The notes beneath the pieces were generated by a model that worked only from the letters and a program-made list of their open reading frames with translations, did no database searches and was not told the DNA's origin. DNA of 64,000 bases from Chondrosia reniformis (taxonomy: Eukaryota > Porifera > Demospongiae > Chondrillida > Chondrillidae): the NCBI GenBank assembly GCA_947172415.1, contig OX359190.1, positions 558,001-622,000 of the forward strand, written 5' to 3'. This document shows, one piece after another, positions 28,714 to 59,849 of the stretch (its first letter is position 1; the number at the start of each line of letters is the position of its first letter). Position numbers and translations under genes: made by a program.

Positions 28714-29460
28714 ATGAAGATCAGGCGTTACAAGCATGCGAGAAGAGTATTGAGTCTCTTTAGAAACTCTTTTGGATTCCACGAGCCCTATCAAGTACTG
28801 GTCGACGGGACCTTCTGTCAAGCCGCTCTGGCGGGAAAGATCCAGTTGAAGGAACAACTGCCAAAGTATTTAGGAGGATCCATTCAACTGGTTACCACTG
28901 GCTGCATCGTCAAGGAGACGGAAGAGTTGGGAGCGGAACTTAGAGGAGCTAATCTTATCTTGAAGCGATTCTCGCAAAGAAATTGCGGTCACAAAAGAGA
29001 GCGAAAGAGCGCGGTAGACTGTCTTCTCTCTCTGATTGGCGAAAGTAATGAACATCGTTACATATTGGCAACACAGGACGAGGACTTGCAGGCAAGTGCG
29101 AGCGTCATCCCCGGAGTACCTCTCCTTCATATTATAAGAAATACTATTGTGCTAAAGAATCCATCGGAAGACACTAAAGAGAAAGCGGTGGAGATTGTAC
29201 GCCAGCAGACAGATTTGACTCCTCACGAGACTGCAGTGTTGGAGGAACTGGACAGCAAGCTGCTCCGAGAGGAAGTGAAGAGGAGAAAGAGGAAGAGACC
29301 AGGCGGCCCTAATCCACTGTCTGTCAAGAAGAGGAAGAAGAGATTAGAGGCACCCGTTTTGGGTAGCACTAGGAATATCAGAAGGAACAGGAAGAGGAGA
29401 GAGAGAGTGAGACTGAAGAGATGTGCTCTCAGTCTTAAAGTTACCAAGTTGACTGAATAA
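28714..29460 (+). CDS. UTP23: UTP23, small-subunit processome PIN-domain-like protein
   Basis: Single exon, 248 residues from the ATG at 28714. MKIRRYKHARRVL matches the usual UTP23 start (MKI.R.KHA), so this codon is preferred to the in-frame ATG at 28705. The YQVLVDGTFCQAAL block, QLKEQLPKYLGG, the zinc-site region RNCGHKRERKSAVDCLLSL, ATQDEDLQ and PGVPLLHI follow in family order. The C-terminal third is strongly basic (KRRKRKRPGGPNPLSVKKRK), as in nucleolar factors. UTP23 acts in 18S rRNA maturation and in release of the U17/snR30 snoRNA. Broken pieces of this gene appear five more times to the right, near CARD exons. Confidence 0.94.
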   Translation: MKIRRYKHARRVLSLFRNSFGFHEPYQVLVDGTFCQAALAGKIQLKEQLPKYLGGSIQLVTTGCIVKETEELGAELRGANLILKRFSQRNCGHKRERKSAVDCLLSLIGESNEHRYILATQDEDLQASASVIPGVPLLHIIRNTIVLKNPSEDTKEKAVEIVRQQTDLTPHETAVLEELDSKLLREEVKRRKRKRPGGPNPLSVKKRKKRLEAPVLGSTRNIRRNRKRRERVRLKRCALSLKVTKLTE

Positions 29461-30956: not shown

Positions 30957-33900
30957 ATGGAAAAAAGCCCAGATGAAGTCTTTGAGTTTTTGGATAAGCT
31001 CAAGGAGAGTGATTTACAACATTGCAATGTAAAGAAAGTAGCATCTAAACTAGAAAGAGATAAAGTTATAGATAGAGATCAAAAACAACAAATAGACAAG
31101 TGCCAAAGTAATGCCAGTGCAAATGAGTTGCTTTATAAGTTTCTTTGTGATGATCCAGCACCAGAAACACTTAAAGGTGCTGCTGAGGTACTTAAGAGTG
31201 CTCCTGGGACTACTAACATGAACAAGAGGTGTGCTAAGGCCATTGAAGCATTTCTATTCGGAATTGATCCTGCTCGGTTATTGGAATTTGAAGGTGTGTG
31301 TATGAATAGTGTTATGAAATGTGAAATAATTTGCTGTCTCTACAGAGACTATAAAAAGCTAAATTTGGTAGACTACAGCTTTTTAATATACAGAATGGTT
31401 TGAGAAGGGCAGTCCTGATCCTCAAGATACTGCCAAACAAGATACAGTATGTCAGGGACCCAGTTAATTGTTTACATACGTAGGTACTCAGTAAAACACC
31501 TCTGGCATTTGAATTTCCAAGAATCCCCAGACACCCTCAATCCAGGGTTATAAGTATTCTCAGAATACTTACTATGTAATCACAAAGTGACCCGATTTCC
31601 TAAGAAATATGTATATATACGTATGTGTCAGTATGGGACAACCAATGATCACTGCAGTGGAAGGTGTGTGTATATATGAGTGGTGAAGTAATGTATCTCT
31701 ACAATTTGGACCGTTCTTATTATATCAAACATACAGATTGTAAAGATAAAACCTGCATGGCTATTCCAGTTACCACGGAGACTTAATGTAAATTTATTTT
31801 CAATATGCTTTAAAGAAAATGGCCACTTACCAAGCACACTATATACAATTTTGATGCTTTTCTGCTCTATGCATTATATGATTATTATCTCAAGTTTATC
31901 TTCTTCTATATATATGTCAATAGAAAAAAGACCAGATGAAGTCATTGAGTTTTTAGATCAGCTCAAGAAGGATAATTTGCAATATTGCAATGTAAAGAAA
32001 GTAGCATCTAAACTAGAAAGAGATAAAGTTATAGATAAAGATCAAAAACAACAAATAGACAAGTGCCAAGGTAATGCCAGTGCAAATGAGTTGCTTTATA
32101 AGTTTCTTTGTGATGATCCAGCACCAGAAACACTCAAAGGTGCTGCTAAGGTACTTAAGAATGCTCATGGGACTACTAACATGAACAAGAAGTGTGCCAA
32201 GATCATTGAAGACTTTCTAGGAATTGATCCTGCTCAATCATTGGAAGGTGTGTGTATGAATAGTGTTATGAAGTGTGAAATAATTTGCTGTCTCTACAGA
32301 GACTATAAAAAGCTAAATTTGGTAGACTACAGCTTAATTTCCCAAAAGTCTAGGGGGGGGGGGGGGGGCAAAATCAATTCTAGGGGAAATCCCCCTCCCC
32401 CCTCTATGCTGCACTGAATAGTATGTCTCTTCCACTATAGAACCTCCTTCTGACCAACTTGCTGGAGCAGTTGCTACCAAAGGTCAGAGTACATCAGCAG
32501 CAGTAACTGCTTTGGGTCGACCAGACTGGAGAAAGTTATTTGAAGCTTTTGATGAGATTGAAAGTCTCGAGTCACATGAAATTAAAGAAACTTACAGAAA
32601 GACTATGACCAAGTTGTGCATTCTTTTGGACAAGATCACACCAAAGGAATTACGAGCCATCCTTGCTAGTTTACAAGCTGGGAAATGGCAATTGGGAATT
32701 AGCTTGGATGATATTCCTGATACAAAAGAGAAATTGGAAAAGTATATTTTCCACTGGACCACTCCACTAGATGTTCGCATGATTGAGTATACGGAGGAAG
32801 CTATTGAAGATAAGGAAAAGAAGAAGAAACTAGTAGAAGCTCTAGAGAATCATAGAGATGAGCTGAAATCATTTTCAGAAAAGAGCCTTGAATGTTTAAA
32901 GGAGCAGAGAGTGAAACTTGCAAAAGGTACAAATGTAAGCCACATTGTTGTGGAGGTTGCCCTGAAGCCAGAAGAATACCTCCTCAGGGAGTTACTCAGA
33001 CTACAAAAATACCTGGAAAAGAATCTTCGAATTAATCCGCTTTTGTTTAAAGGATTCATTAGCAGCAGTATCTTGCTGATCTTTCAGATCTTGTCTTCAT
33101 CAGCCGTTCTTCTTGCTCCCTCACTACTCTCCCACCTCTCTGCCTTGAGAGATGACTACAGTGTGACAAAGATCCTGGTACAAGACCATTTTGCTGTGGA
33201 TGTATCGGAAGGGAATCTCTATCCACTTCTAACAGTTTCCGAAGTGCAGTCTAAGGTTAGTAGAATTGGGAGACTACATCTGTATCTGTTTTATTGACAG
33301 AATATGGGGGTATCACTAAGGCACAATGAGCTAATGAATGGAACCAGAGTCTCTCCTTAGCAGTACTTGTAGTTAACCCTTGTTGTAATAGTAGTAATCT
33401 CTACATGTAATTCAGTATAGACCTTGAATAAGCCTGCATGTGTGGCTAGGTTCATCAATCATGATTTAGATTCAAACTATCACTAGCCAAAAGGAACAGA
33501 TTTACATCCAACGTTTCGTGAAATTAATATTGGACATCTATGTGAAACTGCATGTACAAATGGTTAGAAGTAATTCCTGTTTATCTGTTGATTTTATATG
33601 CCAGATAGACTTTATGTGTAAGATGTTCTTATTTGTATAGATGGAGACTGCATTAATTAAAGAAAAGAGGATAAGTTGAAAATTAAGGATTATTTTTTCT
33701 TCTGTATGTATAGTTGAGCGTGGCTGGTAAAGTGGAATTTGATGGAGACCAGCTCCTTCTCTATAAAGACCAGTCTACCTGTACTGGAGGTGAGTAACAT
33801 ACCAATAATACATTTGCTGATATGTCAGGCTTGTATGCAGGGGGATTCCCCTGTTTGTCTAGGAGTTCTGTCCTGAGCAGCAACTTATTATTATACCAGT

Positions 33901-35439
33901 AGCCTTAGCTGCTAGCTAGCATGAGATAGAGGTCCTCCTTGTGCAATATCATAATCATTTGACCAGTTGAATGTGCATTTCTCACATTTGCTGTCTCTAC
34001 AGAGACTATAAAAAGCTAAATTTGGTAGTTTACAGCTTTTTAATATACTTTAGTAATTCAGTTGGGACATTACAGCCTGTATCCAATGTATTTGTTTCAG
34101 TTTGTTATTATAGGCACACTTACATATATATTAAACTATATGTATTATGATACTTGGGGGGTGGGCAAAATGAAAAAATCAAAATTTAGGGCAGAGGGGC
34201 AATGTTATATACATAATATTAAGCTGTATACAAAAGTCTAGGGGGACAAAATCAATTCTAGGGGGAATCCCCCTGCCCCCCTCTATGCTGCCCTGAATAG
34301 TTACTGATAGTATGTCTCTTCCACTATAGAACCTCCTTCTGACCAATCGGCTGTAGCAGTTGCTACCAAAGGTCAGAGTACATCAGCAGCAGTAACTGCT
34401 TTGGGTCGACCAGATAAGGGGAAGTTAAGTGAAGCTTTTAACCAGATTGCAAGTCTGGAGTCACATGAAATTAGAGAAATGCACAGAAAAATTATGATCC
34501 AATTGTCCAATCTTTTGAATGAGATCACACAAAAAGAAATTCAATGTATCCATTCTAGTTTGCAGTCTGGATGTCAATGGCAATTGGGAATTAGTTTAGA
34601 TATTCCTGATACAAAAAAAGAATTGCAGACATTTATTGCAGACTGGACCACTCCACTAGATGTTCGCATGATTGAGTATGTGGAAGAAGCTATCGAAGAT
34701 AAAAGGAAGAAGAAGAAACTGGTAGAAGCTCTGAAGAAACAAAAAAAAGAGCTGAAATCATTTTCAGAAAAGAGCCTTAAATATTTAAAGGAGCAGGGAG
34801 TCAAACTTGTGAATCGAAAACACTTTACTTCCCTGAAGCCAGAAGAATACCAGGGAGTGGAACTTGCAAAAGGTACTAATTAAAACTACATTGTTTCTGT
34901 AATTATACTGGGCATCTACATCTTCTCATGATCTCACTATATATCTTTGAGTTGAAATAAACTCCAAAGACATCATCTGTTAATCATTAACAATTTCCAG
35001 AACAGATTCTCTTCATTTTATAAAAGGATGATTATCTGTATCTTGTCACAGTAATTCTGGAAAATCTTAATGATTAACAATTTCCAATAAAATATATATT
35101 TCCGAACCTGATTTAAGAAGCACATTATGTATTAAAAATGAGTCATTGAAGTGCTAAGCAAATAAGATAGGAATTAAAGGAAGCACAATTCTTATATTAT
35201 GAAGGTAAATGACAAGCACTAGTGTATTGAGTTTCTTGTTCAGACAAAATTACTTGAACATTAGTGGCTTAAGAATTACCTGTAATTAGTTGTCTTTTAA
35301 TTGATTAATTAAATTACATAATATCAGCTCTTGACTGTTTTACCCAAATCTGTTTTAATAACTGTTGACAGGTAAGGTCTCCCTCAATCCAGAAGAATAC
35401 CTCCTCAGTGAATTACTCAAACTAAAATTTGATCCATAG
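30957..35439 (+). CDS. CARD-CARD-X domain gene, lacking a Roc-COR exon (locus 1)
   Basis: Proposed exons: 30957-31293 (ATG, CARD), 31924-32247 (CARD), 32441-33255 (linker plus X domain and a C-terminal extension), 33714-33789 (LSVAGKVEFDGDQLLLYK), 34330-34872 (second X domain) and 35372-35439 (LNPEEYLLSELLKLKFDP, stop). Phases 1, 1, 0, 1, 1 agree; the product is 720 residues. The CARDs (for example DEVFEFLDKLKESDLQ, then CQSNASANELLYKFL and PAPETLKGAAEVLK) are helical death-fold modules. The X domain carries TTPLDVRMIEYTEEAIED and KKKKLVEALENHRDELKS. The last donor (GGTACTAA) is poor, so the 3' end is uncertain. Exon 33714 also joins in frame to 37788, so this could instead be the 5' half of the ROCO gene to the right (1725 residues in all). 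Confidence 0.62.
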
Positions 35440-36370
35440 CCGTTCCAGGATTAACGCCTTAAGAGATGATTACAGGATAAGACCTTAAGAGATGATTACA
35501 GGATAAGACCTTAAGAGATGATTACAGGATAAGACCTTAAGAGATGATTACAGGATAAGACCTTAAGAGATGATTACAGGATAAGACCTTAAGAGATGAT
35601 TACAGTATACAGGATACTGGACCATTTTGCTGTGGACGTGTTGGAAAGGGAACACACTATTCACTTTTAACTGACTTCCTGCAGTGCAGTCTAAGGTTAG
35701 TAGAATTGAGAGACTGGGGTGTGTTCAATGGACATATTTAAAGCTGTGATTATATTGATCAGAATTTAAGTACAAATATAGATAAACCTATATAGATAGT
35801 TTCTCCTAAATGTCGGACACCACATGTATTATATCTTTATATCTTACTACAAATATAGGGGCCACTGGAGCTACATGTGCACTTATATGGAGCTCCCCTT
35901 CTAATTAAGGACGAGGAAGACTTTGCTAGCATGACATCGCTAAATATAGGCAGAGACTATGAGTATAAAGATGTGTATTACAAAATATATAGGCCACGTG
36001 AATTATTTGTTACTTTACATACATATGGATATACAATTACACGTACATAATGATCATATACATTTAACAAGTGACTGATTGGTAGGTATACCCTCAAAAT
36101 AGAATTAATTATAATAAAAAAACATTCAAAAAATGAAGTTAGAAGTAGGGATGGCAGTGCCTGTAACAGTGATAAACACATCTGCAAAAAGTAACAAAGG
36201 ATCTGGAGTAGCTATGTAAAGTAGAATCGCAAATAATGTCAAAATGAATGTTTCTTTACTTTCAAGTTCACTTTCCCTAGTCAGCCATCTTGGTGGGAAG
36301 GCAGGGTTGACACCTGTGACGTCATAAGACCTTTTACACGTGAAAATCCAGTTACTCCAGTTTTTTAGTT
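35225..36370 (+). repeat. 1.1-kb tandem duplication, left copy
   Basis: Begins TATTGAGTTTCTTGTT, includes an X-domain 3' remnant (35372-35439), the 26-bp array, an AT-rich stretch, and a promoter-like end with CCATCTTGG (36285-36293) and TGACGTCA (36317-36324). The right copy follows directly. Confidence 0.85.
35457..35610. repeat. 26-bp tandem repeat
   Basis: CCTTAAGAGATGATTACAGG begins a 26-bp unit present about six times (35461, 35487 and on). The sister segment at 36600 has only one unit, so the expansion is recent. The unit derives from X-exon C-terminal sequence (LRDDYS). Confidence 0.92.
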
Positions 36371-37303
36371 TATTGAGTTTCTTGTTTGAACAAAATTACT
36401 TGAACATTAGTGGCTTAACAATTACCTGTAATTAGTTGTCTTCTAATTGATTAATTAAATTACATAATATCAGCTCTTGACTGTTTTACCCAAATCTGTT
36501 TTAATAACTGTTGACAGGTAAGGTCTCCCTCAATCCAGAAGAATACCTCCTCAGTGAATTACTCAAACTAAAATTTGATCCATAGCCGTTCCAGGATTAA
36601 CGCCTTAAGAGATGATTACAGTATACAGGATACTGGACCATTTTGCTGTGGACATGCTGGAAGGGGAACACATCACTCACTTTTAACTGATTTCCGGCAG
36701 TGCAGTCTGAGGTTAGTAGAATTGGGAGACTGGGGTGTGTTTTCATTGGACATATTTAAAACTGTGATTATACTAATCAGAATTCAAGTACAAATAGATC
36801 AACCTTTGCTGCTAGGTGTATATGATTGTTCTTTCCTATTTCTAACCATTTCATTTGTGAAGTTTCTCCTAAATGTTGGACACCACATCCCCTTTTAATT
36901 AAGGACGAGGAAGACTTTGCTAGCATGACATCACTAAATATAGGCAGAGACTATGAAGTATAAAGTTGTGTATTACAAAATATATAGGCCACGTGAATTA
37001 TTTGTTAGTTTACATACATATGGATATACAATTACACGCACATATTGATCATATACATTTACTAACAAGTGACTTATTGGTAGGTATACCCTCAAAATAT
37101 AATAAAAAAACATTCAAAAAATGAAGTTAGAAGGATGGCAGTGCTAATGTTAAGTGGAATCGCAAATAATGTCAAAATGAATGTTTCTTTACTTTCAAGT
37201 TCACTTTCCTTAGTCAGCCATCTTGGTTGGAAGGCAGGGTTGACACCTGTGACGTCATACGTACGTTTTACACGTGGAAATCCAGTTACTCCAGTTTTTT
37301 AGT
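36371..37303 (+). repeat. 1.1-kb tandem duplication, right copy
   Basis: Same order as the left copy: X-domain remnant at 36518-36585, one 26-bp unit, the same AT-rich stretch, CCATCTTGG at 37218-37226 and TGACGTCA at 37250-37257. It is shorter by five repeat units and some small deletions. The 37304-37787 stretch after it holds no convincing exon. Confidence 0.85.
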
Positions 37304-37787
37304 CAGATGAACGGCCAAGAATCGGAAGTTAGAGGTCGACAGAAGATCTACCAAAATTGTACGTTATCTTTGAAACAGCACTTAAACAAGTATTTTTATT
37401 AGCGAAATAACGTCTCAGTCCTGAGTCGAAAACAGAACCGAGAACTCATGTGTATGTAAAAATGGCGTCCGAAAGCCTCCCCAATTTGGTAGCTACAATT
37501 GATATATTTTGTGTAAGGCGCATTTAAATGTAGCATATTCCCTGGTTCGGACAAATTAATGACGATTTAGAACGACGTTTGTTGGTTTATGAGACGAGAT
37601 GACTTTAATAGGATAATGTGAGAAGGTGCGGGCGGCCATGTTCAGCCATGCAGTACTCAGAGAGTACGACTCCCTAATAATGCCTAAATTAAGATATTTT
37701 ATATACGTATGTGGTATACATACGTATACAGGAACTAAGATCTTGACAGTTAAATAAGTTACTGATAATGTGTCTCTTCCACTATAG

Positions 37788-40700
37788 ACCATCCTCCTGA
37801 CCAACAGTCTCTAGAAACTGCTACAAGGGGTCAGAGTACATCAGCACCAGTGACTGCTCTGAGTCGAACAGATGAGAAGAAGCTATTTGAAGCTTTTAAG
37901 CAGATTAATAATTTGGAGTCGCATGAAATTGGAGAAACTTACAGAAAAATTATGATCCAGTTGTCCAATCTTTTGAATGAGATCACACCAAAAGAATTGC
38001 AATGTATCCGTTCTAGTTTGCAATCTGGATGTGAATGGCAATTGGGAATTAGTTTAGATATTCCTAATACAACTAAAGAATTGCGGACATTTATTGCAGA
38101 CTGGACCACTCCACTAGATGTTCGCATAATTGAGTATGTGGAAGAAGCTATTGAAGATAAGGAAAAGAAGAAGAAACTGGTAGAAGCTCTAAAGAAACAC
38201 AGAGATGAGCTGAAATCATTTTCAGAAAAGAGCCTTAAATATTTAAAGGAGCAGGGAGTCAAACTTGTGAATCGAAAACACTTTACTTCCCTGAAGCCAG
38301 AAGAATACCTCCTTTGGGAGTTATTCAGATTGCAAAAGTACCTGCAAATCGATCCATGTTTGTTTGAAGGATTCATTGTCAAGGTTAGTAGATTAGGCTG
38401 TGATTATACTCATCCGATAATTACAAATGTGGTGTATTGTACAGTGAATCCTTGGTTATCTGAACCCAATCGGGCAAATGCGATTTTGTTGGGATAAGTG
38501 AAAGTGAAGTATTTTGGCGATTCTATAACATATATTTACGTATCTGCAATCGTGTGTGAAAAGTGTTAATGGCAACTGCAAAATGTTGAACGTACGTACA
38601 TTAAACCTGTGAAAAACTAATTACATAATCCATGGGTCATCTGGGTAATTTCATGGTCCATATAATTGAGGATCCGAATAATCTAGGTTCAGATAACCGA
38701 GGGTTTACTGTACATGTATATCAATTATCACATATCAGCAATGTTGCAATTTATTACTAACAACTCTACTAATACAGTACATGGTGTTAGCTATATTAGA
38801 AATACAATTTTCTCCTTCTACAGGTTCCAAAGAGGTATGGCAAAGCCATAGAAAGACATGGTTCAGTTGAAGTGAACATTAGCCGTGTAATCCTCACAGG
38901 AGGCTCACGTGTTGGTAAAACCTCACTGAAGCACTACCTGCTCCACAACACAGTAAGAGAAGACAAAACTAGCACTGGAGTGCTGGAAGCTCCTGAAGTG
39001 GCCACCATTGCTGGGGAGCAAGCTATAAGGACAGGATTTGAGGAGGAAGGTCAGGGGCAGGAAGAGGAGTTTGATTTCATTAAATGTTTGGCAGTTGGTT
39101 CTTCCTGGAAAGTTTTAACAGATGAAAAGCTAGGGCAGCTTATTTCAAAGATTAAAATGGAGGAAAGGGAGATCTTTCCGGGCGGCACTCTAGAGACCCC
39201 ATCTGCCCCTCTTCCACAGGCTACATCTGATGATACCACTTTAGCTGGTGATATTGCCAAGACAACCGAGATAGCCAGTGAGACGACCAAGCTACCAACC
39301 GACACCTCCATAACCCCTCCTCTTCCAAGCCATGATACCACTGAGGCTTTAGCAGTACAAGACCCACTGGAGCTGCTAGTACAAGCCAGGGACAGCTTCC
39401 TGCAGAAGCACAATCTCTCCACTGAAGCAGAATTTGATGAAAAGGAGTGCACGTTCATTTACCTCCTGGACACAGGAGGTCTGCCCTCCTTCCAGAATGT
39501 CCTTCCACTCCTACTGGACTCTCCCTGCAACTTTCTGCACGTCTTTAAAGCTTCAGAGAGGTTGACAGATCCGTATATCAATGCTTACTGTCAAGATGGA
39601 ATCACTGAAGTGGAGAGAGCCAACAGCCGTTCAACCTGGGAATTGATGAAGGAGTCCATTACAGCTGCCTACACAATGTCAATGAAGAGCAAGCGGCAGT
39701 TGGAAGCATTTGATGTTGCCACTGAGCCCCAACTTCGCATTTTCCTTGTTGGCACTCACCTTTCCCATCTTCCAGAAGATCCTGAAGTTAAGAGAGCTCT
39801 ACTGGACCTCAACAAGAAGGTTCTAGAAGAAATGGACAACAAGCCATATGCCAGCAACAGGGTATTCCCCCCAAAAGAGGTTGCCTACAAAGGTGCTGGT
39901 AGCTACTTTGTTGTGGACAGTCAGCTACAGGGAGACAGCAACCTGAAGGAACACACTCGTAAAGCAATCAATGCTCTTCGCTCTCTACTTTCAGATCCCA
40001 AGAATCAATTAACATTGAAAGTCCCCAAAGTTTGGTTCTGCCTGCAAGTAATCACATCTAGCGTGAAAAAGAAGATGTGGAAGTTCACAGAAATGAAAGA
40101 ATTCTGCATCCGATGCCAATTTATCCAAGCTGTAGATGCTGATGGACAGCTCCTTGCACTGCTGAAGCTGTTTCATTGCCTTGGGTTCTATGTGTACTTT
40201 GATCTGAGTGAGTACAAAGAGCAGTGGATCTGTACAGATGCAACCTTTCTGTACAAGGAAATGTCCAAAGTGCTATCGGTCCAATATGGCCCAAGTGAAT
40301 CTTCAAGTCCAGAGCTACGCAAATTCATTAAAAAAGGCATGATTTCTGAGGCTCTTTCTGAGGCCTTGTTCCAACAGCTAGGCATTGATGCTGACATCCC
40401 AACAAGATGGCTCCTGGAGGTCCTAGTAAATGTCGGTATTGCATTCAAAATGAGAGAAAAGGAGACACACTACTTCATTCCAGCAGTCCTTCCTGAGAGG
40501 CAGATCCGCCTACCTAAAGCATCTGCGGCCACTTTGGGATTCACTTTCTCATTCCATTCTGACGAATATCAGAGGTACAGCTGTGTACCGACTGGTCTAT
40601 TCCACAGACTGGCTGTGGATATTGCAAGTGGCAGACAGGCACTCAAGGAGGAGGAAGTGAGCCCAGTCCAGCTGAGGGGAAAGCAGTGGAGGTACTACCA

Positions 40701-43238
40701 CATGCAGTCTGACAGTAGACGGTTCATTTTCACACAAGAAGATGCCCACATTGCTCTTTCCCAAAAGGAAGACCTCATTCAACTCCAACTGTTGGTTCCT
40801 GAGCACTTTCCAATGCTAGGTCTGTCCTTGTCTGAGCTCTGCAGGCACATCAGAAGGGAGATGTATGAGCGCATTTGTTACGTGAGTGAGGTAGTATTTG
40901 GTGCAGAGTTTCTTGAAGAGAAAGCCACTTTAGAGGATGGGGTCATTTGCAGTCACCAGGATTGTGAGGGATCTAGTTTGCATCTTCTGCGATTTGAAGG
41001 TGGCAACCAGAGAACAGGTCTGTGTACCAGACTGAACAAGATGACTGGACTATCTCCAAGAGAGTCTGTTTGGGTTGCTAAGGAACAGGACAGCAACACC
41101 AATGTAAGTTTGCATAATATTATATACCGTATATCAGGAATTGAATGCGTGTGTCAAAAGAATGTGAATCGCGAGTTTTGACTGTATGCTGTATGCGCAA
41201 TCTTTTGACACGTAATTATTGATTTGATTTGTAATTTTGTATACACATCGCTGTACACCTATAAGCATTCTTTTGACCACAATGTTTACTTAAACCCGTG
41301 ATTCACAATCTTTTACTCTCGCATTCATATCCGAATATAGGGTATTCAACAAAATAGACCTTATCAGAAATGTAGCAATTATTGACTGTATATTTTACAT
41401 TTTAATCTTGCTGCTACTGACGCTATATAATATTTTATTATTGTTATTCTTTCAACAGTAATATTTTAATTACAGTGAATCCTCGATTATCCGAACCTCG
41501 ATTATCCGGATCCTCGATTATCCGGATCACAAAATTACCTTGCACGTGACACGTGGATTACGCAATTATGATACCAACGTATGCGAATGTGACACGTTTC
41601 AGTCACGCTAATGTTTTTTGCTCGATCGAGGATGGCAGAGTCTACTAGCGCTGCGAAACCTAAGCGAAAGAGAACAGTTTTAAGTATTGAATCTATACGT
41701 GTTTTGTTGGCGTGCTTGATCGTCCAAAGAAATCGTTCTACTGTTCTACATATTTGATTATATTTCACTTATCCGAACTTTTCACTTATCCGAACAAAAT
41801 TTTTGTGCCATTTGACCAATGGGGTTCGGATAACCGAGGATTCACTGTATATTTATTGATTTTTATCTTCTTCTGTATAGTTGAGTGTGGCTGGTAAAGT
41901 GGAATTTGATGGAGACCAGTTCCTTCTCTATAAAGATGGTGAGTGCATATTCACTAACACAGCTGTTGTGCAGCATTTTCAGTTTATTGCATAATGATTT
42001 ATATGTCTTCATGTGTTCATATGTAGATGCCAGTTGTGAATGGAGAAAGGTAATACAACTCCATCATAGGGTCTACCTGCGAGAGAATCTCTGTATCAGA
42101 GAAATTGCCAACCAGCTCTTGCAAGGAATGGATGGAACACAGCTAATTACATATGGCATTTATCAGAGGATCAATCATGCTGTAACCAAGAAAGATGCAA
42201 ATGAAATCTTCTTGGAACACTTGAGAAGTAAAACACTTTCAGATTTTGATATTTTCTGCAAGATCCTCCGACAAACCTCAAGAGACTATGAGGTACATGA
42301 AGAAGTGGCTGACAGGCTGGAAGGGGACACCAGAATATGGGTAGGTCCTTACACTTCAGAATATGGGTAGGTCCTTACACTTCAGAATATGGTAGGTCCT
42401 TACACTTCAGAATATGGGTAGGTCCTTACACTTCAGAATATGGGTAGGTCCTTACATACTTTAGAATATGGCACACATACTTTCCTCTTTATGATGTTTG
42501 TCGGTGATTACTTGTGGTTTGATTATCACTTTGATCTCACATGTGTGCTGTTATGTGTCTTCCTATACCTATTCTCTATTTATCATTTGACTGCATTAGG
42601 GAGATCAGCCTTTGAGATCAAGAAATTCAAGTGAGTTTTAAACAGATATATACGTACGTATAGGTTGCTATATAACAGATGTACAAAGTAATGTGTTCAA
42701 TTTATTGTACCTGTAACGTTTACATTGTCACCATTTTGTACGATTCATAGGATCCTGTGAACCAGACAAATCAAAACAAGCCATGGACACCAACCTACCA
42801 ATGCCAGTTACACCAGTTGGTAAGGAGAAATGCAATTTACTTTACTTTGTTTGTGGATGCGGCAAAAACTCACAGTCTCACATTCTTTAGACACACACAT
42901 TCAAATTTTGTATTCTGTACAGTATTACATTTGGTATGTATTATATACATGTATCTGTAGCTGAGGACAGCTTACAACAGAGAGTGACTCTTTGCCAACT
43001 TCAAGATGTAGCTGATTCTGAAGCTGTCAACAAGTGGAAACCAGTGTGCAGACGTTTAGGAGTGAGAAGGGACATCATTGTAGAGGCAGAAAAAGCTAGT
43101 TCAAACGATCGATCAGAAGCCTTTGTCATAGCCTTGGAGTTATGGCATGACGAACAAGGAGATAAAGCTACAGTTTCTGTCCTTGTTGAAGCACTGGAGA
43201 AGAGTGGATTTAATGAAGTGGCCAAATCACTCAAATAG
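37788..43238 (+). CDS. X-Roc-COR-CARD-Death protein (ROCO gene 1)
   Basis: Exons: 37788-38383 (linker and X domain), 38824-41103 (Roc-COR, 760 codons), 41881-41938 (LSVAGKVEF), 42027-42340 (CARD), 42600-42630, 42751-42819 and 42961-43238 (Death domain, stop). All phases agree. The Roc part has the P-loop GGSRVGKTS, a DTGG switch-II motif and FLVGTHLS in place of NKxD, with a Thr/Pro-rich insert before switch II. The COR part includes LKLFHCLGFYVYFDLSEY and CTDATFLYKEMSKVL. The CARD (KVIQLHHRVYLREN) and Death domain (VNKWKPVCRRLGVRRDIIVE) suggest a cytosolic death-fold signalling scaffold gated by a GTPase. DTGG is followed by Leu where the sister gene has Gln. The first exon needs a phase-1 exon upstream; the exons at 30957-33789 fit, so the gene may start at 30957. 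Confidence 0.85.
38442..38710. mobile_element. pogo/Tigger-type MITE in the X-to-ROCO intron of gene 1
   Basis: CAGTGAATCCTTGGTTATC at one end and GATAACCGAGGGTTTACTG at the other, flanked by TA on both sides: the terminal repeat and target site of pogo-like DNA transposons. Non-coding. An equivalent element sits in the same intron of ROCO gene 2 (47903-48328). Confidence 0.85.
41125..41344. mobile_element. TA-flanked MITE, copy 2, in a ROCO gene 1 intron
   Basis: Same family as 20696-20917, with ends TACCGTATATCAGG and ATATAGGGTA and the same interior (GAATGCGTGTGTCAAAAGAA). The matching intron of ROCO gene 2 (50753-50930) reads straight through this point, so the insertion followed the gene duplication. 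Confidence 0.87.
41473..41847 (+). mobile_element. Internally deleted pogo/Tigger DNA transposon
   Basis: Terminal repeats CAGTGAATCCTCGATTATCC and GGATAACCGAGGATTCACTG with TA flanks. Inside, an ATG at 41632 opens MAESTSAAKPKRKRTVLSIE, which resembles the N-terminus of Tigger-like transposases just before the CENP-B-type helix-turn-helix. The DDE domain is absent. The CTCGATTATCCGGAT motif is triplicated at the left end. Missing from the matching ROCO gene 2 intron. Confidence 0.85.
42341..42470 (+). repeat. 26-bp tandem repeat of the exon-intron boundary
   Basis: GTAGGTCCTTACACTTCAGA followed by ATATGG is repeated about five times, beginning at the 5' splice site of the CARD exon (TATGG|GTAGGTCC). 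Each unit recreates the exon's last bases and the donor. Confidence 0.9.
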
Positions 43239-43784
43239 TACGTGTTAGGCTAATATTAATACAGCTCCTATATAGATAGAAGGTTGACATTACAGTACCA
43301 ATAAATACAATACAATACAACTGGTATCTTTTACTAATCTCTTTTGATATGACTATTTAGTAGATAATTAACGTGCAACCACTTAAATTACTTATTTCTT
43401 CTTATGCACATTGTCCAGACCTACATATATATACATATATATATGTATTTCAATACTTAATTCATTTGTTTTATAGGGTTACATACAGTGAAATGGATCT
43501 CAACATTGATCTTATTAACATCCCTCTTCCTAGATCCACTGTGCACATGTATACTTCATAAACCATTTTTGTATTATTACTGTCATCAGTAAAATCAATC
43601 TAGTTTTAGTATGTAATTTGCTGTTTAACATTTTGAATAAGAAAGAATACTCTATATGTTTGCTGTATGTCAAAGCTGAGTAATCTTTATATATATATCT
43701 ACTCTGTTGGTATACGTCATTAGATGTAGTTTTACTGTTTTCCTTTCCTTATTTGAGATTAGCTGTTTTGATCAGATATACATA
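43239..43784. other. Downstream region of ROCO gene 1
   Basis: AT-rich sequence presumed to hold the 3' UTR. An acceptor-like TTTTATAG at 43479 precedes a short frame (MDLNIDLINIPLP), but joining it to the Death exon meets a stop at the junction, so I do not call an exon. Confidence 0.55.
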
Positions 43785-43906
43785 CAGGTTTCCTATGTAG
43801 ATATAGGTGTAGCTAGGGTATAGTGCATTCTATAGCTATTTGTTTAAGAAATGTACAAAACAACTTCAAACTCTCCTCTGTACCAACATTCAGCAAGTGC
43901 TTTAAG
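43785..43906 (-). pseudogene. Inverted CARD-exon fragment A
   Basis: On the minus strand it reads FLKHLLNVGTEESLKLFC, matching the last part of the terminal CARD exon at 51165 (FLKHLLNAGTEESLKLLC). It abuts UTP23 fragment 2 at about 43907. The same inverted sequence recurs at 59850-60120. Confidence 0.82.
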
Positions 43907-44086
43907 AATTCCACGAGCCCTATCAAGTATTTGTCGACGGGACCTTCTGTCAAGCCGCTCTGGCGGGAAAGATCCAGTTGAAGGAGCAACTGCCAAAGTA
44001 TTTCGGATGTGCTCAGGAAGAGGAGAGAGAGAGAGAGACTGAAGAGATGTGCTCTCAGTCTTAAAGTTACCAAGTTGACTGAATAA
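43907..44086 (+). pseudogene. UTP23 fragment 2 (two pieces joined)
   Basis: About 100 bp match UTP23 from FHEPYQVLVDGTF to QLPKYF. The sequence then jumps directly to the extreme C-terminal part (KRRERER, LKRCALSL) and its stop. The middle of UTP23 is deleted. The next copy on the right (60121-60270) keeps the same join after AAGTATTTCGGATGTGCTC. Confidence 0.88.
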
Positions 44087-44607
44087 CTTGTTTTAACACA
44101 TTCTTTAGTCATTTTTACATTGGTATTTTAGAAATCATGAAACTCGCACGTAATATAGCGCAACCATTTTACTAACCCTCGTGCACGTATATGAAGCTGG
44201 ACCCGAAGGGCGTATACTAAACTGGGAGGGCGTATACGTAGGAAAGTTGCCAATCCTCTTCGTCCATTCTCCAAACTTATAACTAGTAAATTCGAGTCTT
44301 AAAGAAGATTGAAATCTGTACCAATATCGTAAGCAAATAGAAAACTCTAGTATTCAGAGCCCTTGGAGAGTCAGAGGAAGAGAGGTGATTTATACGATTG
44401 ACGCTTGTTCGTGTATACCTTATTGCACAAGCCTGTGCCACAGTTTGTATATAACTCTTAAAGTGATATGCTCTATGATCAGCAAGCTGAATGACTTCAA
44501 TATCAGAATCATTTGACCAGTTGAATGTGCATCTCTCACTTTTAATTACAATTTTGATACTTCCATACTATACCTTACTTAATGTTGAACTGTATTTGTA
44601 TATAGCA
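44087..44607 (+). promoter_or_regulatory. Duplicated 5' flank of the CARD genes, copy 2
   Basis: Same ordered block as 30476-30956, with an extra GGAGGGCGTATAC repeat near 44220-44240. It leads to TATATAG and CAATGG at the CARD start codon. Confidence 0.65.
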
Positions 44608-47600
44608 ATGGAAAGAAGTCCAGATGAGATCATTGAGTTTTTGGATAAGCTCAAGGAGAGTCACTTGAAGTTTTGCAATGTAAAGCGTTTATCACATGGG
44701 CTAGAAAGAGAGAAAGTTATAAATGCAGCTCAGAAACAGCGATTAGAGAATTGCCAAACTAAAGATGAAGCAATACAGTTGTTTCATCAGTTTCTTCATA
44801 ATGATCCAGCACCAGAAACACTCAAAGGTGCTGCTGAGGTACTTAAGAATGCTCCTGAGACTACTAACGTGAACAAGAGGTGTGCTAAGGCCATTGAAGC
44901 ATTTCTAGGAATTGATCCTGCTCAATCATTGGAAGGTGTGTGTATGAAATGGAAAATAATTTGCTGTCTCTACAGGGACTAATGAGACTATAAAAGCTAA
45001 ATTTGGTAGTCTACAGCTTTTTCATATACTTTTAGTAATTCAGTTGGGACATGACAGCCTGTATTCAATACATTTGTTTCAGTTCGTTATAGACACACTT
45101 ACATATATATTATTATATATCATATGGAATGATATTTGGGGGCCGGGAGGACAAAATGAAAATTTTCAAAATTCAGGGTGGGGGGGGCGGGCAATATTAA
45201 GCTACATATTTATTTCCCAAAAGTCTAGGGGGGTTAAATTAATCCTGGGGGGAATCCCTTCTGCCCCCTGAGGGCCTCTATGCAGCCCTGAATATATTTA
45301 CTGATAGTATGTCTCTTACACTATAGAACCTCCTCCTCCTTACCAACCTCCTCCTGCTGTAGCAGTTATTACCAGAGGTCAGAGTAGTATCTTTTGAAAT
45401 GATCATCTTTCGACTTTTAGAGCGTCTAAAGACGCAGTTTTCTTGTTTCTTCTTGCTGTCAAACATTTCAACCCTGAGATTCAACGATTGAATGTGAAAT
45501 AACATTATTAATTAATTACTTGTGGTTTTATGTGACATATAAAAGAGTCTCAGATTAGACAGTTTTTGATCAGCTCTCTTATTGAGGTTTAATAGTTGCT
45601 GTTATTATTAAAAGTTGTACAAGTGTCTGCACCCGTTTGTGACCGATCTCGCTCACGTTTGTCCTTCTTTGTAACGCTACGTTTGGTTTTCACTTACCTT
45701 GGATTGCTGAACGACAGGGCTGGTGTACATATATATGAGTGGTGTTATTATTGTGAACAGGCCCGTACACATGGGGTGTTCATTGGGTGTGTATAAAACC
45801 CCTCCAGGATCTGTGGTGCTTAAAATTGTACGGGCCTGGTGAAGTAATATATCTCTACAATTTGGACCGTTCTTATTATATCAAACATACAGATTGTAAA
45901 GATAAAACCTACATGGCTATTCCAGTTGCCACGGAGACTTAATGTAAATTTATTTTCATTATGCTTTAAACAAAATGGCCACTTACCAAGCACACTATAT
46001 ACAATTTTAATACTTTTCTGCACTATGCATTATGATTATTATCTCATGTTTATCTTCTTCTATATATATCAATAGAAAAAAGACCAGATGATATCATTGA
46101 GTTTTTGGATGAGCTCAAGAAGAATGATTTGCAATATTGCCATGTAAAGAAAGTATCATCTAAACTAGAAAGAGAGAAAGTGATAGATAAAGCTCAGAAA
46201 CAACAAATAGACAAGTGCCAAAGTAATGCTGAAGCAAATGAGTTGTTTCATCAGTTTCTTTGTGAAGATCCAGCACCAGAAACACTCAAAGGTGCTGCTG
46301 AGGTACTTAAGAATGCTCCTGAGACTACTAACATGAACAAGAGGTGTGCTAAGGTCATTGAAGACTTTGTAGGAATTGAGCCTGATCGGTCATTGGAAGG
46401 TGTGTGTATGAATAGTGTTAGTGTAAAATAATTTGCTCTCTCTAAGAAGAATGAGTCAATGAACTTTTATTTGTATACATTATTCCATGCATATACATGA
46501 GTGTTTAGGGACATTCCCTTTACTTCTGTCATTCCTCAGCAGCTGGTCCATCAGAGACACACCCTCCCTCAGCACCTGGAAAGAATTGGAAAGAAACGAT
46601 ACAATCCAAACACTGGCTCTACCTGTTGGCCAACCTCACTGTCGACAAGATAGTGGATCACCTCTACCAGGGAGTGGATGGAAAGTCACTGGTTACTGAA
46701 GAGGTGTATGATGATATTGAGAATGCAAAGAGCCAAAAGGAAGCAAACAAGATCTTTTTAAAGCACTTGCTGAATGCTGCTACAGTGGAGAGCTTGTATC
46801 TGTTTGGTAAAGTACTCCATCAGACATCAGATGAATATCCGATTCATGAAGAGATTCTTGAGAAACTGAAAGTGGATTTCACTGGAGTATTTTTGGGAAT
46901 GAAGCAGTCAGGTGAGTATATATGTACACTATTTTGAAGTGTGAAGTAATATCCTGATGATTTTTCATGAATTGAATGATATTTGGGGCCATGGTGGGGA
47001 AATATTTTTTTTATTTAGGGCGGGGGGCAATGTTTTATACATATTAAGCTGTATACGTATTTTCCCAAAAGTCTAGGGGGGTGGGTAAAATCAATTCTAG
47101 GGGGATCCCCCGCCCCCCTCTATGCTGCCCTGAATAGTTTCTGATAGGGTGTCTCTTCCACTATAGACCCTCCTCTTGACCAACAGTATGAAGAAACGTC
47201 TACAAGGGGTCAGAGTACATCAGAAGCAGAGACTGCTCTGGATCAAACAGATGAGAGGAAGCTATTTGAAGCTTTTGACCAGATTGATAGTCATGTGGAG
47301 TCACATGAAATTAGAGAAACTTACAGAAAAGTTATGATGGAGTTGTCCATTCTTTTGGACAAGATCACACCAGAGGAATTACGAGCCATCTGTGTTAGTT
47401 TGCAAGCTGGGCGATGGGAATTGGAAATTACATATAGCTTGGATGATATTCCTAATACAACTAAAGAATTGCAGAGATTTCTTGTAATCTGGACCACTCC
47501 ACTAGATGTTCGCATGATTAAATATGTGGAAGAAGCTATTGAAGATAAAGAGAAGAAGAAGAAACTGGTAAAAGCTCTAAAGAAACATAAAGAAGAACTG

Positions 47601-50600
47601 AAATCATTTTCAGAAAAGAGTCTTGAATATTTAAAGGAGAAGGGAGTGAAACTTGTGAATCCAGAACACTTTGCTTCCCTGAAGCCAGAAGAATACCTCC
47701 TCAGGGAGTTACTCAGATTGCAAGAGTACCTGCAAATCGATCCGTATTTGTTTAAAGGCTTATTGAAGGTTAGTAGAAGGGTCCAATGTTAGTAAGATTA
47801 TTTGATAATTAGTGACTAAGGCTGTGATTATAGTAATTGGAATTAATAATACTTACAAATGTGGTGTGTGGTACAAATGGATTTGCCTTTTGCCGTGTTG
47901 TACAGTGAATACTTGGTTATCTGAACCTCAATTCTCAATTGCATTGGGTAAATACTGTAAAACCTTAATATTAGCTTTAGCGTTTTGTAAATACTTGCTC
48001 CACACTACTGTGCATGTGTAATAATAAACATTTTAGAGACCATAAATGTTATAGAGAATGATATTGCATCACTAATTTCGCTATCATTAATAGCACACTA
48101 ATATTATGTACCACAACAATTTTATTGGGATAAGTGAAAGGTTCGTAATGTTAAGTAATTTGGATGGTGATTCTATGACATATATTTATCTGCAAAAATG
48201 TGTTTAATCCTAAATTCCTAAATGTCTGCATTCTGTTTTAATGTTAAACTAATTGAACGTCCGTTAACGGTAATTTTGTGGTCCATATAATCGTGGATCC
48301 AAATGTTCGGATAACCAAGGATTCACTTTACATGTATATCAGTTATCAGCAATGATGCAATCTACTTTTAACATATCTACTAGTACAGTAATTGGCGAAT
48401 AACATGAAATCAAACAATATATTGTATTAGCATAAATTATCTATACTACCGATTATGGTAGCTAATTATAGTATACTAACAACTCTACTAATACAGTACA
48501 TGGTGTTAGCTATATTAGAAATACAATTTTCTCCTTCTACAGGAACCAAAGTGGTACATTGAAGCCATAGAAGGACATGGTTCAGTTGAAGTGAACATTA
48601 GCCGTGCAATCTTCACAGGAGGCTCACGTGTTGGTAAAACCTCACTGAAGCACTACCTGCTCCACAACACAGTAAGAGAAGACAAAACTAGCACTGGAGT
48701 GCTGGAAGCTCCTGAAGTGGCCATCATTGCACAAGGCATTGCCATTGGGTCTTCTTGGGAAGTTTTAACAGATGAAAAGCTAGGGCAGCATATTTCAAAG
48801 GTTAAAATTGAGAAAAGGGAGGTCTTTCCAGGCAGCACTCTAGAGACCCCATCTGCCTCTCTTCCACAGGCTACATCTGATGATACCACTTTAGTTGGTG
48901 ATATTGCCAAGACAACTGAGATAGCCAGTGAGACAACCAAGCTACCAACCGACACCTCCATAACCCCTCCTCCTCCTAACCATGATACCACTGAGGCTTT
49001 AGCAGTACAAGACCCACTGGAGCTGCTAGAGCAAGCCAGGGACAGCTTCCTGCAGAAATACAATCTCTCCACTGAAGCAGAATTTGATGAGAAGCAGTGC
49101 ACGTTCATTTACCTCCTGGACACAGGAGGCCAGCCCTCCTTTCAGAATGTCCTTCCACTTCTACTGGACTTTCCCTGCAACTTCTTGCACGTCTTTAAAG
49201 CTTCAGAGAGGTTGACAGATCCGTACATCAATGCCTACTGTCAAGATGGAATCACTGAGGTGGAGAGCTCCAACAGCCGTTCAACCTGGGAATTGATGAA
49301 GGAGTCCATTACAGCTGCCTACACAATGTCAATGAAAAGCAAGCGGCAGTTGGAAGCATTCGATGTTGCCACTGAGCCCCAATTGCGCATTTTCCTTGTT
49401 GGCACTCACCTTTCCCTTCTTCCTGAAGATCCTGAAGCTAAGAGAGCTCTACTGGACCACAACGAGAAGGTTCTAGAAGAAATGGACAACAAGCCATATG
49501 ACAGCAACAGGGTTTCCCCCCAGAAGAGGCTGCCTACAAAGGTGCTGGTAGCTACTTTGTAGTGGACAGTCAGCTACAGGGAGACAGCAAACTGAAGGAG
49601 CACACTCGTAAAGCTGTAAATGTTCTTCGTTCTCTACTTTCAGATGCCAAGAATCGATTAACACTGAAAGTCCCCAAAGTTTGGTTCTGCCTGCAACTAA
49701 TCACATCTAGCGTAGAAAAGAAGATGTGGAAGTTCACAGAACTGAAAAAGTTCTGCATCCAATGCAACTACATCCAAGCTGTAGATGCTGATGGACAGCT
49801 CCTTGAAATGCTGAACCTCTTTCACAGTCTTGGGTTCTATGTGTACTTTGACCTGAGTGAGTACAAAGAGCAGTGGATCTGTACAGATGCAACCTTTCTG
49901 TACAAGGAAATGTCCAAAGTGCTATCGGTCCAGTATGTGCGAAGTGAATCTCCAAGTCCAGAGCTACGCAAATTCATTGAAAAAGGCGTGATTTTTGAAG
50001 CTGTTTCTGAGGCCTTGTTTCAGCAGCTAGGCATTGATGGTGACATTCCAACAAGATGGCTCCTGGAGGTCCTAGTAAATGTCGGTATTGCAGCCAAAGT
50101 TAGGGGAAAGGAGATGCACTACTTCATTCCAGCAGTCCTTCCTGAGAGGCAGATCCACCTACCTGAAGCATCTGTGGCCACTTTGGGATTCACTTTCTCA
50201 TTCCATTCAAGTGAATATCAGAGGTACAGCAGTGTACCGACTGGTCTATTCCACAGACTGGCTGTGGATATTGCAAGTGGCAGACAGGTTTTAAACGACG
50301 AGGAAGTAAGGCCATTACAGTTGAGACGAAAGCAGTGGAGGTACTGCCACAAGCAGTCTGACAGTAGACAGTTCATTTTCACACAAGAAGATGCCCACAT
50401 TGCTCTTTCCCAAAAGGAAGACCTCATTCAACTTCAACTGTTGGTTCCTGAGGACTTTCCAGACACAGAGCCATCCTTGTCTGAGCTCTGCAAGCACATC
50501 AGAGAAGAGATGTACAAGCGCATTTGTTACGTGAGTGAGGTAGTATTTGGTGCAGAGTTTCTTGAAGAGAAAGCCACTTTAGAGGACGGGGTCATTTGTA

Positions 50601-51484
50601 GTCACCAGAATTGTGAGGGCTCCAGTTTGCATCTTCTGCGATTTGAAAATGACAACCAGAGAAAGGGTCTGTGTACCAGACTAAACAAGATGAAGTCATT
50701 ATCTCCAAGAGAGTCTGTTTGGGTTGCTAAGGAACAGGACAGCAACACCAATGTAAGTTTGCATAATATTATGTATTTAACAAAATAGACCTTATCACGA
50801 ATGTAACAATTATTGACTGTATATTTTACATTCTAATCTTGCTGCTACTGACTCAATTTAATATGTTATTATTGTTATTATTTGGACACAAGTAATTTAT
50901 TGATTTTCATATCTTCTTCTGTATACGTAGTTGAGTGTGGCTGGTAAAGTGGAATTTGATGGAGACCAGTTCCTTCTCTATAAAGACCAGTCTACCTGTA
51001 CTGGAGGATCTGAAGTTGTTAGACAGCCAACACCATCTGCCAACTCGGGAGAGTGTGATGGTGAGTGCATATTCACTGTACCACTAAAATGTGAACCAGA
51101 TTATGTTAGTTAACTGCCTCATGATTATGTAATGATTTTTTATGTTATTGCATGTATTGTATAGATGTTCCCGACAATTGGAAAGAAATGATACAATCCA
51201 ACTGGATCTACCTGTTGGACAAGCTCACTGTTGACAAGATAGTGGATCACCTCTACCAGGGAGTGGATAGAAAGCCACTAGTTACTGAAGAGGTGTATGA
51301 TGAGATTGAGAATGCAAAGAGCAAAAAGGAAGCAAACAAGATCTTCTTAAAGCACTTGCTGAATGCTGGTACAGAGGAGAGTTTGAAGCTCCTTTGTACA
51401 GTTCTTCAACAAACATCTGGTGACTATCACATTCATAAAGAGATTCTTGAGAAACTGAAAGTGGATTTCAAATTTGGAATGTAA
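44608..51484 (+). CDS. CARD-CARD-CARD-X-Roc-COR-CARD protein (ROCO gene 2)
   Basis: Exons: 44608-44935 (ATG, CARD), 46076-46399 (CARD), 46540-46911 (second CARD type, NLTVDKIVDHLYQGVDGK), 47167-47768 (X domain), 48543-50752 (Roc-COR), 50931-51060 (LSVAGKVEF plus linker) and 51165-51484 (CARD, stop). All junction phases agree. The P-loop GGSRVGKTS and DTGGQPS are intact. The Roc-COR exon lacks about 23 codons found in gene 1 after the P-loop and is one base short near 49514 (GTTTCCCCCC against GTATTCCCCCC). The frame therefore shifts in the middle of the exon: either a real recent lesion or a sequencing error in a C run. It ends with a CARD rather than a Death domain. Upstream lie the same flank block and UTP23 piece seen at other CARD genes. 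Confidence 0.82.
45327..45397 (+). other. Orphan linker exon, truncated X-domain entry
   Basis: After the acceptor CTATAG it reads EPPPPYQPPPAVAV, then ITRGQSSIF and a stop. The start matches the X-domain linker (EPPSDQ..AVATKGQST), but the X domain itself is replaced by the arm sequence found in the palindrome at 61747. Joining it to the first CARD would give a short CARD-only protein. Confidence 0.6.
45388..45483. repeat. Single arm of the palindromic element at 61747
   Basis: ATCTTTTGAAATGATCATC through GTCAAACATTTCAACCCTGA matches the left arm of the inverted repeat at 61747-61941. The second arm is absent here. Confidence 0.8.
47903..48328. mobile_element. pogo/Tigger-type MITE in the X-to-ROCO intron of gene 2
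   Basis: CAGTGAATACTTGGTTATC and GATAACCAAGGATTCACTT ends with TA flanks. Same intron and same direction as 38442-38710, so it was present before the two ROCO genes duplicated. It is longer here by about 160 bp. Confidence 0.83.
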
Positions 51485-59102: not shown

Positions 59103-59433
59103 ATGGAAAGAAGTCCTGATGAGATCATTAAGTTTTTGGATAAGCTCAAGGAGAGTCACTTAAAGTATTGCAATGTAAAGAGTTTATCATATAGGCTAGA
59201 AGGAGAAGAAGTTATAAATGCAGCTCAGAAACAGCAATTAGAGAATTGCCAAAGTGTTGCTGAAAGAAATGACCTGTTTCATCAGTTTCTTCGTGGTAAT
59301 CCAGCACCGGAAACACTCAAAGGTGCTGCTAAGGTACTTAAGAATGCTCCTGGGACTACTAACATGAACAAGAGATGTGCCAAGATCATTGAAGACTTCC
59401 TGGATGGAATTGATCCTGCTCAATCATTGGAAG
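59103..59433 (+). CDS. CARD first exon, unit 4
   Basis: ATG just after the TATATAG acceptor; 110 codons plus one base, ending at the GAAG|GTGTGTG donor like every sister exon. The frame reads MERSPDEIIKFLDKLKESHL, then CQSVAERNDLFHQFL and PAPETLKGAAKVLKN. Reading through the donor adds 62 residues before a stop. No X-domain or ROCO exon follows before the next CARD unit, so in this window it is either an isolated first exon or a CARD-only gene. Confidence 0.72.
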
Positions 59434-59849
59434 GTGTGTGTATGAATAGTGTTATGAAATGTGAAATAATTTGCTGTCTCTACAGAGACTATAAAAAGCT
59501 AAATTTGGTAGTCTACAGCTTTTTCATATACTTTTAGTAATTCAGCTAGGACATGACAGCCTGTATCCAATGCATTTGATTCAGTTTGTTATAGGCACAT
59601 GTACATATATATTAAGCTATATTATTATATGTTTGGGTGCACCATTCCTACTATAGGTTAGTGCGCCCAAACACAGAAGTGTATGGTTAAGTTACTTAAA
59701 TTTCAGTATACATGCAACTTCTGTATGATTAGCCTTATCATATAATCAGTGTCTTGTTTCGATACTTTTTGCAGATGTATTAGTGAACACTGCTATTCCT
59801 ACTTCTAACATCATTTTTGTAAATGTTTTTATTTACTTTTAGATATACA

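Follow-up and report, generated by a model that had tools for sequence, protein, structure and literature searches.

A CARD-CARD-X-Roc-COR-CARD-Death gene model within an expanded ROCO family of the sponge Chondrosia reniformis

A 64,000-nucleotide stretch of the genome of the demosponge Chondrosia reniformis (assembly GCA_947172415.1, contig OX359190.1; C2:558001-622000 in our contig numbering, hereafter the window, to which coordinates without a contig or locus prefix refer) contains a gene model, gene A, in which death-fold domains lie on both sides of a Roc-COR GTPase core. From front to back it reads CARD, CARD, X (a module described below), Roc-COR, the end of COR, CARD, a pair of short exons and Death. 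Searches of the 117,379,552 bp of the genome, in 15 contigs, place gene A in a large family in which Kelch, Roc-COR and CARD, sometimes followed by Death, is the usual neighbour order. At close to even chances, we tentatively regard gene A as a rare adaptor-type member of this sponge ROCO repertoire.

Gene A occupies 30957-43238 on the forward strand, which also carries the other CARD, X and Roc-COR exons of the window. Its nine exons, modelled on splice signals, have GT-AG at every inter-exon border and phases that agree throughout, and the joined frame of 1,428 amino acids is unbroken and closes with a stop. Exon 1 (30957-31293), placed by its splice borders and by the fold model of its family, encodes the N-terminal CARD N1, begins with an ATG and ends in phase 1; exon 2 (31924-32247, phase 1-1) encodes the second CARD, N2, and has no starting ATG. 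These are followed by X3 (37788-38383, phase 1-0), shorter than a complete X by roughly its final quarter, and by a Roc-COR exon of 760 codons (38824-41103, phase 0-0) with the P-loop GGSRVGKT, the motif DTGGL and a COR-A match at about 40027-40491. A short exon carries the COR end (41881-41938, phase 0-1) and precedes the C-terminal CARD exon (42027-42340, phase 1-0), two linker exons of 31 nt (42600-42630) and 69 nt (42751-42819) placed by splice borders and phase, and the Death exon with the stop (42961-43238). The layout given in the preliminary description, with death-fold domains at both ends of a ROCO switch and exons of fixed phase, is therefore borne out in one open gene model. In this splice model the frame is also preserved when N2 is left out or when X1, a full-length X module (32441-33255, phase 1-0), substitutes for X3. 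A transcript carrying X1 and then X3 was rejected, as its joined frame breaks. Two 26-bp minisatellites lie within the gene A span, at 35457-35609 and 42331-42471, the latter consisting of some five copies of the CARD exon end plus splice donor.

Pfam scans of genes A and B (gene B being the neighbouring unit at 44608-51484) covered all but the short linker and COR-end exons. The Death domain of gene A was matched above the Pfam cut-off (E 1.6e-11), while its C-terminal CARD (E 0.01), Roc (E 0.0033, 18.1 bits vs a cut-off of 27) and COR-A (E 1.1e-5, 25.8 bits vs 35.3) fell below theirs. Roc followed by COR-A within one exon is the order of the ROCO family, and the P-loop GxxxxGK[ST] and DTGG were found in all eight sequences covering the region, with a G4-like word in five of them. 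No NACHT or LRR was matched in the scanned exons of genes A and B, and no protein kinase in those of gene A.

The switch II region sets gene A apart from its relatives. Seven of the eight covering sequences read DTGGQ and gene A reads DTGGL. A genome-wide search with a pattern derived from gene A, allowing up to three mismatches and leaving more diverged copies uncounted, returned 50 sites, of which 49 have CAG (Gln) and one, gene A, has CTG (Leu; 39481-39483); the reversed control pattern returned none. In Ras, the change of Gln61 to Leu blocks GTP hydrolysis. In LRRK2 the position matching this Gln is occupied by Arg1398. If these Roc domains use the Gln as Ras does, the change suggests a hydrolysis-poor switch in gene A, which is therefore predicted to stay in the GTP form.

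The two front exons of gene A belong to a module, here called N-CARD, that matches seven times in the window (starts at 30957, 31923, 44608, 46072, 59103, 60809 and 63427); X matches four times (near 32446, 34335, 37790 and 47172), with a further fragment at 62347, so that exon number does vary between copies, as had been proposed. Pfam CARD matched none of 21 N-CARD members at E 0.05. A fold model of N2, built from the seven window copies, has six helices and a predicted local distance difference test score (pLDDT) of 90.4. Counted by eye, 15 of its 20 best matches in the PDB are CARD chains, including those of Apaf-1, CARD8, NLRC4, caspase-1, RIP2 and RIG-I, and two more are designs based on the Apaf-1 CARD; the top TM-score belongs to the Apaf-1 CARD itself (1cy5, 0.71/0.82, root-mean-square deviation 1.9). 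When the N-CARD profile was run against PDB sequences, CARD8 appeared in second place (E 0.16 and 0.23). We conclude that the N-terminal module is predicted to have the six-helix CARD fold, the weight lying on the agreement of many CARDs and not on E-values; the label CARD first given to it is thus upheld by predicted fold and not by Pfam. Of 24 N-CARD copies examined across the genome, 19, including two linked to NACHT (L026 and L028), have a donor-like word in phase 1 behind the domain. In three of the other five, L033 and two copies that follow a Roc-COR (L027 and L034), the frame meets a stop instead, as read by eye.

The X module resembles no known domain that we could identify, as Pfam searches with 11 members and a profile search of the PDB gave nothing usable; weak Pfam matches such as TcdA_TcdB were rejected as chance, all being below cut-off and, at E 0.05, seen in two of the 11 members. 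In its full form X combines helices with a C-terminal region whose secondary structure, by our reading, runs strand-helix-strand-strand-helix-strand; counted by eye, seven of nine full X sequences have [GAS][SC] where the turn is expected. The TRADD-N domain has an RRM-like fold in which a uS motif sits between the second and third strands (PMC8195603). No match to PF13820 (TRADD-N) was obtained over the genome at E 0.1, a weak test, as the controls were silent too, and a profile of the X C-terminal part matched no TRADD in the PDB. The resemblance makes X a candidate TRADD-N domain, which we offer as a lead. Both X3 and the X of gene B lack about the last quarter, so any TRADD-N-like domain would be incomplete in genes A and B.

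All genome-wide match counts given here are lower bounds, being drawn from the best-scoring candidates: the best 150 of 324 for N-CARD, 59 of 210 for the whole Roc-COR exon, 150 of 171 for a 133-aa COR piece, 150 of 228 for the C-terminal CARD (C-CARD) and 136 of 215 for Kelch, the last giving 137 matches. The COR piece has at least 150 matches, 79 of them on C2 and a few being pieces of one copy; about 70 show at least 80% identity and the others mostly 34-69%. A family of about 150 Roc-COR matches (among the best 150 of 171 candidates) fits the earlier comparison with plant- or NLR-like receptor repertoires. One close relative is preceded by a Kelch propeller and followed by a CARD, and a second also has the Kelch, above a Pfam cut-off.

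For a census of neighbours we used 72 close Roc-CORs, that is, the top 73 COR-piece matches minus one on C14, with two partial copies included and further partial copies, lower in the ranking, excluded. Distances run from exon match to exon match and do not prove a single gene. Kelch lies within 8 kb upstream in 63 of the 72, CARD within 4 kb downstream in 71 and Death within 8 kb downstream in 12, with median spacings of 3.5 kb between Kelch and COR and 1.4 kb between COR and CARD. As the census drew on 102 of the 150 C-CARD matches (97 of them on C2), C-CARD counts outside C2 would be too low. CARD-X without Kelch stands upstream at three loci and Kelch plus X at one, and in 66 of 72 either Kelch or CARD-X precedes Roc-COR. 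The six loci that lack both Kelch and X over these 8 kb comprise two partial copies and four that, checked by hand, have Kelch 8.1-9.0 kb upstream. Controls gave no opposite-strand Kelch within 8 kb, eight downstream Kelch matches, which are probably the next genes of the arrays, and two upstream CARDs. Among the 72, CARD-X and Death occur together at gene A only. The full layout, which had been put forward as that of a gene family, is consequently confined to one locus among the 72. Arrays of Kelch, Roc-COR and CARD lie mainly at C2 0.77-1.51, 1.80-1.84, 2.5-3.6 and 8.18-8.30 Mb. A separate region, C2:1871227-2182049, holds 23 Kelch matches (a few partial), with no Roc-COR among the matches listed within 12 kb downstream. 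At C2:1445880-1454300, CARD and X lie upstream of Kelch and Roc-COR on the same strand, possibly a CARD-X-Kelch-ROCO gene or two adjacent genes.

The N-CARD family is shared with NACHT genes. Among its best 150 matches, NACHT lies within 6 kb downstream in 40, and upstream or on the opposite strand in none; Roc-COR lies within 6 kb upstream in 23, the CARD thus being behind it, and within 8 kb downstream in 12. Conversely, 36 of the 101 NACHT matches in the genome have the N-CARD family upstream. The suggestion that a ROCO switch is used instead of NACHT does not hold for this genome, where both are expanded. X is likewise found in other settings: it follows a Death domain at L058, stands at L061 between Kelch and an exon recognized as CARD-like by alignment only, and occurs in the order CARD, X, protein kinase on one strand (L060, C11:6517846-6521337), a RIP-kinase-like plan. 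Such module swaps are possible because the exon phases are symmetric or compatible. At C2:588-671 kb, six Roc-COR matches lie on one strand, each with CARD and X matches in front. In the third unit of this array, an X that shares 93% identity with X1 over its final 67 residues precedes a Roc-COR only 32-33% identical to that of gene A. The array holds two divergent Roc-COR clades.

Ratios of non-synonymous to synonymous substitution rates (dN/dS) for the Roc-COR of gene A were 0.28 against L080 (343 codons), 0.57 against L076 (713 codons), and 0.40 and 0.45 against gene B. Six X pairs gave 0.54-0.97. One Kelch pair, involving two genes only, gave 0.83 over 279 codons, with 0.49 over 70 codons at the Roc-COR start, and proves nothing. 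From this small sample, the values suit a kept core with fast-changing fronts, but drift of spare exons as well.

How gene A might work can be outlined by analogy. In the usual ROCOs, the Kelch propeller would sense, Roc-COR would serve as a switch that dimerises with GTP, and CARD or Death would recruit partners. Gene A has a CARD-CARD-X unit in place of the Kelch exon, and its CARD belongs to the family that fronts many NACHT exons; through homotypic contact, activated NLRs or further ROCOs would pass a CARD signal to these front CARDs. The Gln-to-Leu change would probably lock the Roc-COR of gene A in its GTP form and so keep it dimerised, and the CARD and Death ends would relay the signal to death-domain partners. 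The dimer switch, the homotypic recruitment and the immune or death output are what we infer from better-known proteins. A wider proposal, which we hold to be unlikely, is that the sponge has a ROCO receptor repertoire at least as large as the NACHT repertoire found here, with exchangeable Kelch sensors and CARD or Death outputs, that the shared symmetric CARD exon wires the two together, and that GTP-locked CARD-CARD-X-ROCO-CARD-Death proteins would be the hubs through which NLRs, Kelch-ROCOs and the death machinery connect.

Several observations weigh against the adaptor account. Gene A is known from genomic sequence only, and the joining of Kelch, Roc-COR and CARD into one gene follows from order and spacing only. 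Roc and COR-A remain below the Pfam cut-offs in gene A, gene B and all five other loci scanned, and for two of those five COR-A was not listed even at E 0.1. The best Foldseek E-value for the N-CARD model was 0.37, with none under 0.001, and a ribosomal protein came first (E 0.09) when the N-CARD profile was compared with PDB sequences. The structure model of X reached a pLDDT of 38, which leaves the fold of X unsolved. Against L073, the dN/dS of the gene A Roc-COR was 0.75, over 70 codons only, and 15 pairs of window N-CARDs ranged from 0.56 to 1.46, as drifting copies would give. The Leu in switch II may itself mark drift. Gene B and X2, an X copy inside the gene A span, are broken, and X3 is short of about a quarter of X.

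Much of this would be expected if gene A were a chimera formed by chance as a tandem array churns, with leftover CARD-X exons upstream of a Roc-COR gene and all of it drifting or dead. The broken X2, the lone COR-end exon at 33714, the frameshift in gene B, N-CARD dN/dS near 1 in many of the 15 pairs, the loss of the switch II Gln, the restriction of the full layout to 1 of 72 loci and the minisatellite across the CARD splice donor all fit such an origin. A chimera accounts poorly, however, for an unbroken, phased frame of 1,428 aa, for the recurrence of CARD, X and Roc-COR in that order across six array units with two divergent Roc-COR clades, and for the Roc-COR dN/dS of 0.28 against L080, and we consider it somewhat unlikely. 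The repertoire as a whole might instead serve allorecognition or housekeeping cell death and not antimicrobial defence. CARD and Death domains function in death signalling generally, and tandem, fast-changing families would also fit self/non-self recognition; the N-CARD family ahead of NACHT exons hints at immune wiring, although nothing separates the two directly, and we rate this alternative as quite unlikely. It is improbable, finally, that CARD-X-ROCO proteins are receptors themselves, with X sensing in place of Kelch. X does replace Kelch upstream of Roc-COR at 3 of 72 loci, but it also stands between the CARD-like exon and Kelch at L061 and between CARD and kinase at L060, as a linker or adaptor would, and its dN/dS over the six pairs gives no evident diversifying selection.

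To our knowledge, DAPK1 carries no CARD. The preliminary description had called the gene A layout new among ROCOs, a claim that leaned on the human proteins. DAPK1 shares Roc-COR followed by Death with gene A, but has a kinase ahead of Roc-COR (PMC6337361), and the scanned exons of gene A contain none. The claim is overstated, as CARD/death ROCOs of Trichoplax adhaerens have been published: at least 17 ROCO genes, with CARD, death, LRR, TPR and AAA around the Roc-COR core (Civiero et al. 2014, PMC4104024). Both animals thus have early-animal Roc-COR proteins bearing CARD and death domains; compared by domain content, the sponge differs in its roughly 150 Roc-COR matches, its Kelch-Roc-COR-CARD order and a CARD shared with NACHT. 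Sea anemones have a kinase-death-TIR gene with Roc/COR (PMC5094078), and Aplysia has TIR-ROCOs (PMC9334734). Brown algae have 9 to 47 LRR-ROC-COR genes, in which each LRR motif is its own exon, exon shuffling occurs and a role as immune receptors was proposed (Teng et al. 2024, PMC11378527). The sponge shares with them an expanded ROCO family with exon shuffling, but the algal LRR precedes ROC-COR and no CARD or Kelch is described in the accessible text, whereas the scanned exons of genes A and B hold no LRR.

Closer to home, the sponge Amphimedon has 357 TRADD-N proteins of the relevant clade, in most of which one to three Death-like domains are followed by TRADD-N and then by an end that varies (Kaur et al. 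2021, PMC8195603). This arrangement, with kinase, repeats or enzymes at the end, resembles the CARD-(CARD-)X-variable plan described here; ROCO or Kelch ends are not listed in the accessible part of that report, and X is only a candidate TRADD-N. The NLRs of the sponge Dysidea avara include CARD-NACHT-LRR and DEATH-NACHT-LRR forms (PMC12909245). They share with gene A an N-terminal CARD ahead of a switch, and the N-CARD family itself fronts NACHT in the C. reniformis genome, but the switch of gene A is a ROCO, with no NACHT in its scanned exons. The word 'roco' does not occur in the text of that study, and we found no report of sponge ROCO repertoires in the open-access literature; subscription literature was mostly uncovered, so that absence is not shown. 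Two further sponge species have Kelch-motif genes, which may or may not be ROCOs, among those showing negative fold changes once microbial molecules had been applied (PMC6208332). As far as these sources go, CARD/death ROCOs and ROCO repertoires are already known, while the scale, the Kelch-Roc-COR-CARD order, the exchange of modules and a CARD exon in common with NACHT genes appear to be new.

Surveys of immune receptors in animals target mainly NACHT, TIR and LRR and would overlook a family of some 150 Roc-COR matches in which Kelch or CARD-X precedes the core and CARD or Death follows it, especially since the Roc, COR and CARD domains score below Pfam cut-offs. If the proposed reading is true, an early animal would use a GTPase related to LRRK2 and DAPK1 as the switch of a receptor, and the CARD exon common to both systems would offer a direct route to probing a junction between NLR and ROCO signalling. 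The Gln-to-Leu change of gene A supplies one sharp biochemical prediction.

The surroundings of gene A record repeated duplication. X2 (34330-34883, its start read from the sequence) closes in a stop and is a probable relic, and the lone COR-end exon (33714-33770, 95% identity by tblastn) has no Roc-COR match in front; the gene A span therefore also contains debris of partial duplications. Gene B comprises N-CARDs at 44608-44934 and 46072-46398, an extra C-type CARD ahead of X (46587-46877), an X module (47167-47768, phase 1-0), a Roc-COR exon (48543-50752), a COR-end exon (50931-50987) and a C-terminal CARD that runs into a stop (51158-51484; Pfam CARD E 9.4e-5, below cut-off); the borders of X and Roc-COR were read from the sequence, and the N-CARDs, C-type CARD and COR end were placed by genome matches. 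Its Roc-COR exon of 2,210 nt is not divisible by three and is read in two frames, with a frameshift near 49514-49541, and the rest of the window past gene B yielded no Death exon. The reading of gene B as a second intact gene was rejected on account of the frameshift. The next array unit begins at 59103-63684, with the last three N-CARDs and the X fragment listed above, and the array continues beyond the window.

A UTP23-like gene (Fcf1 plus a UTP23 sensor motif) lies at 28642-29460, with a fragment at 62468-62710 and a second copy, recognized by eye, about 40 kb on (L075:3946-4749). These copies point to a segmental duplication carrying the CARD-X array. Retroelement-like frames (integrase-like and gag-like, by eye) beside the array, at L076:4213-5330 and L077:1-339, are a possible driver of its duplications. 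An Rfam scan of 22000-64000 gave no match. Elsewhere in the window, a 169-bp satellite forms five arrays at 759-18768, separated by gaps of about 1.3 kb, and, read by eye, a bZIP-like frame (26694-27686) and collagen-like exons (55002-57880), both on the reverse strand, flank the region.

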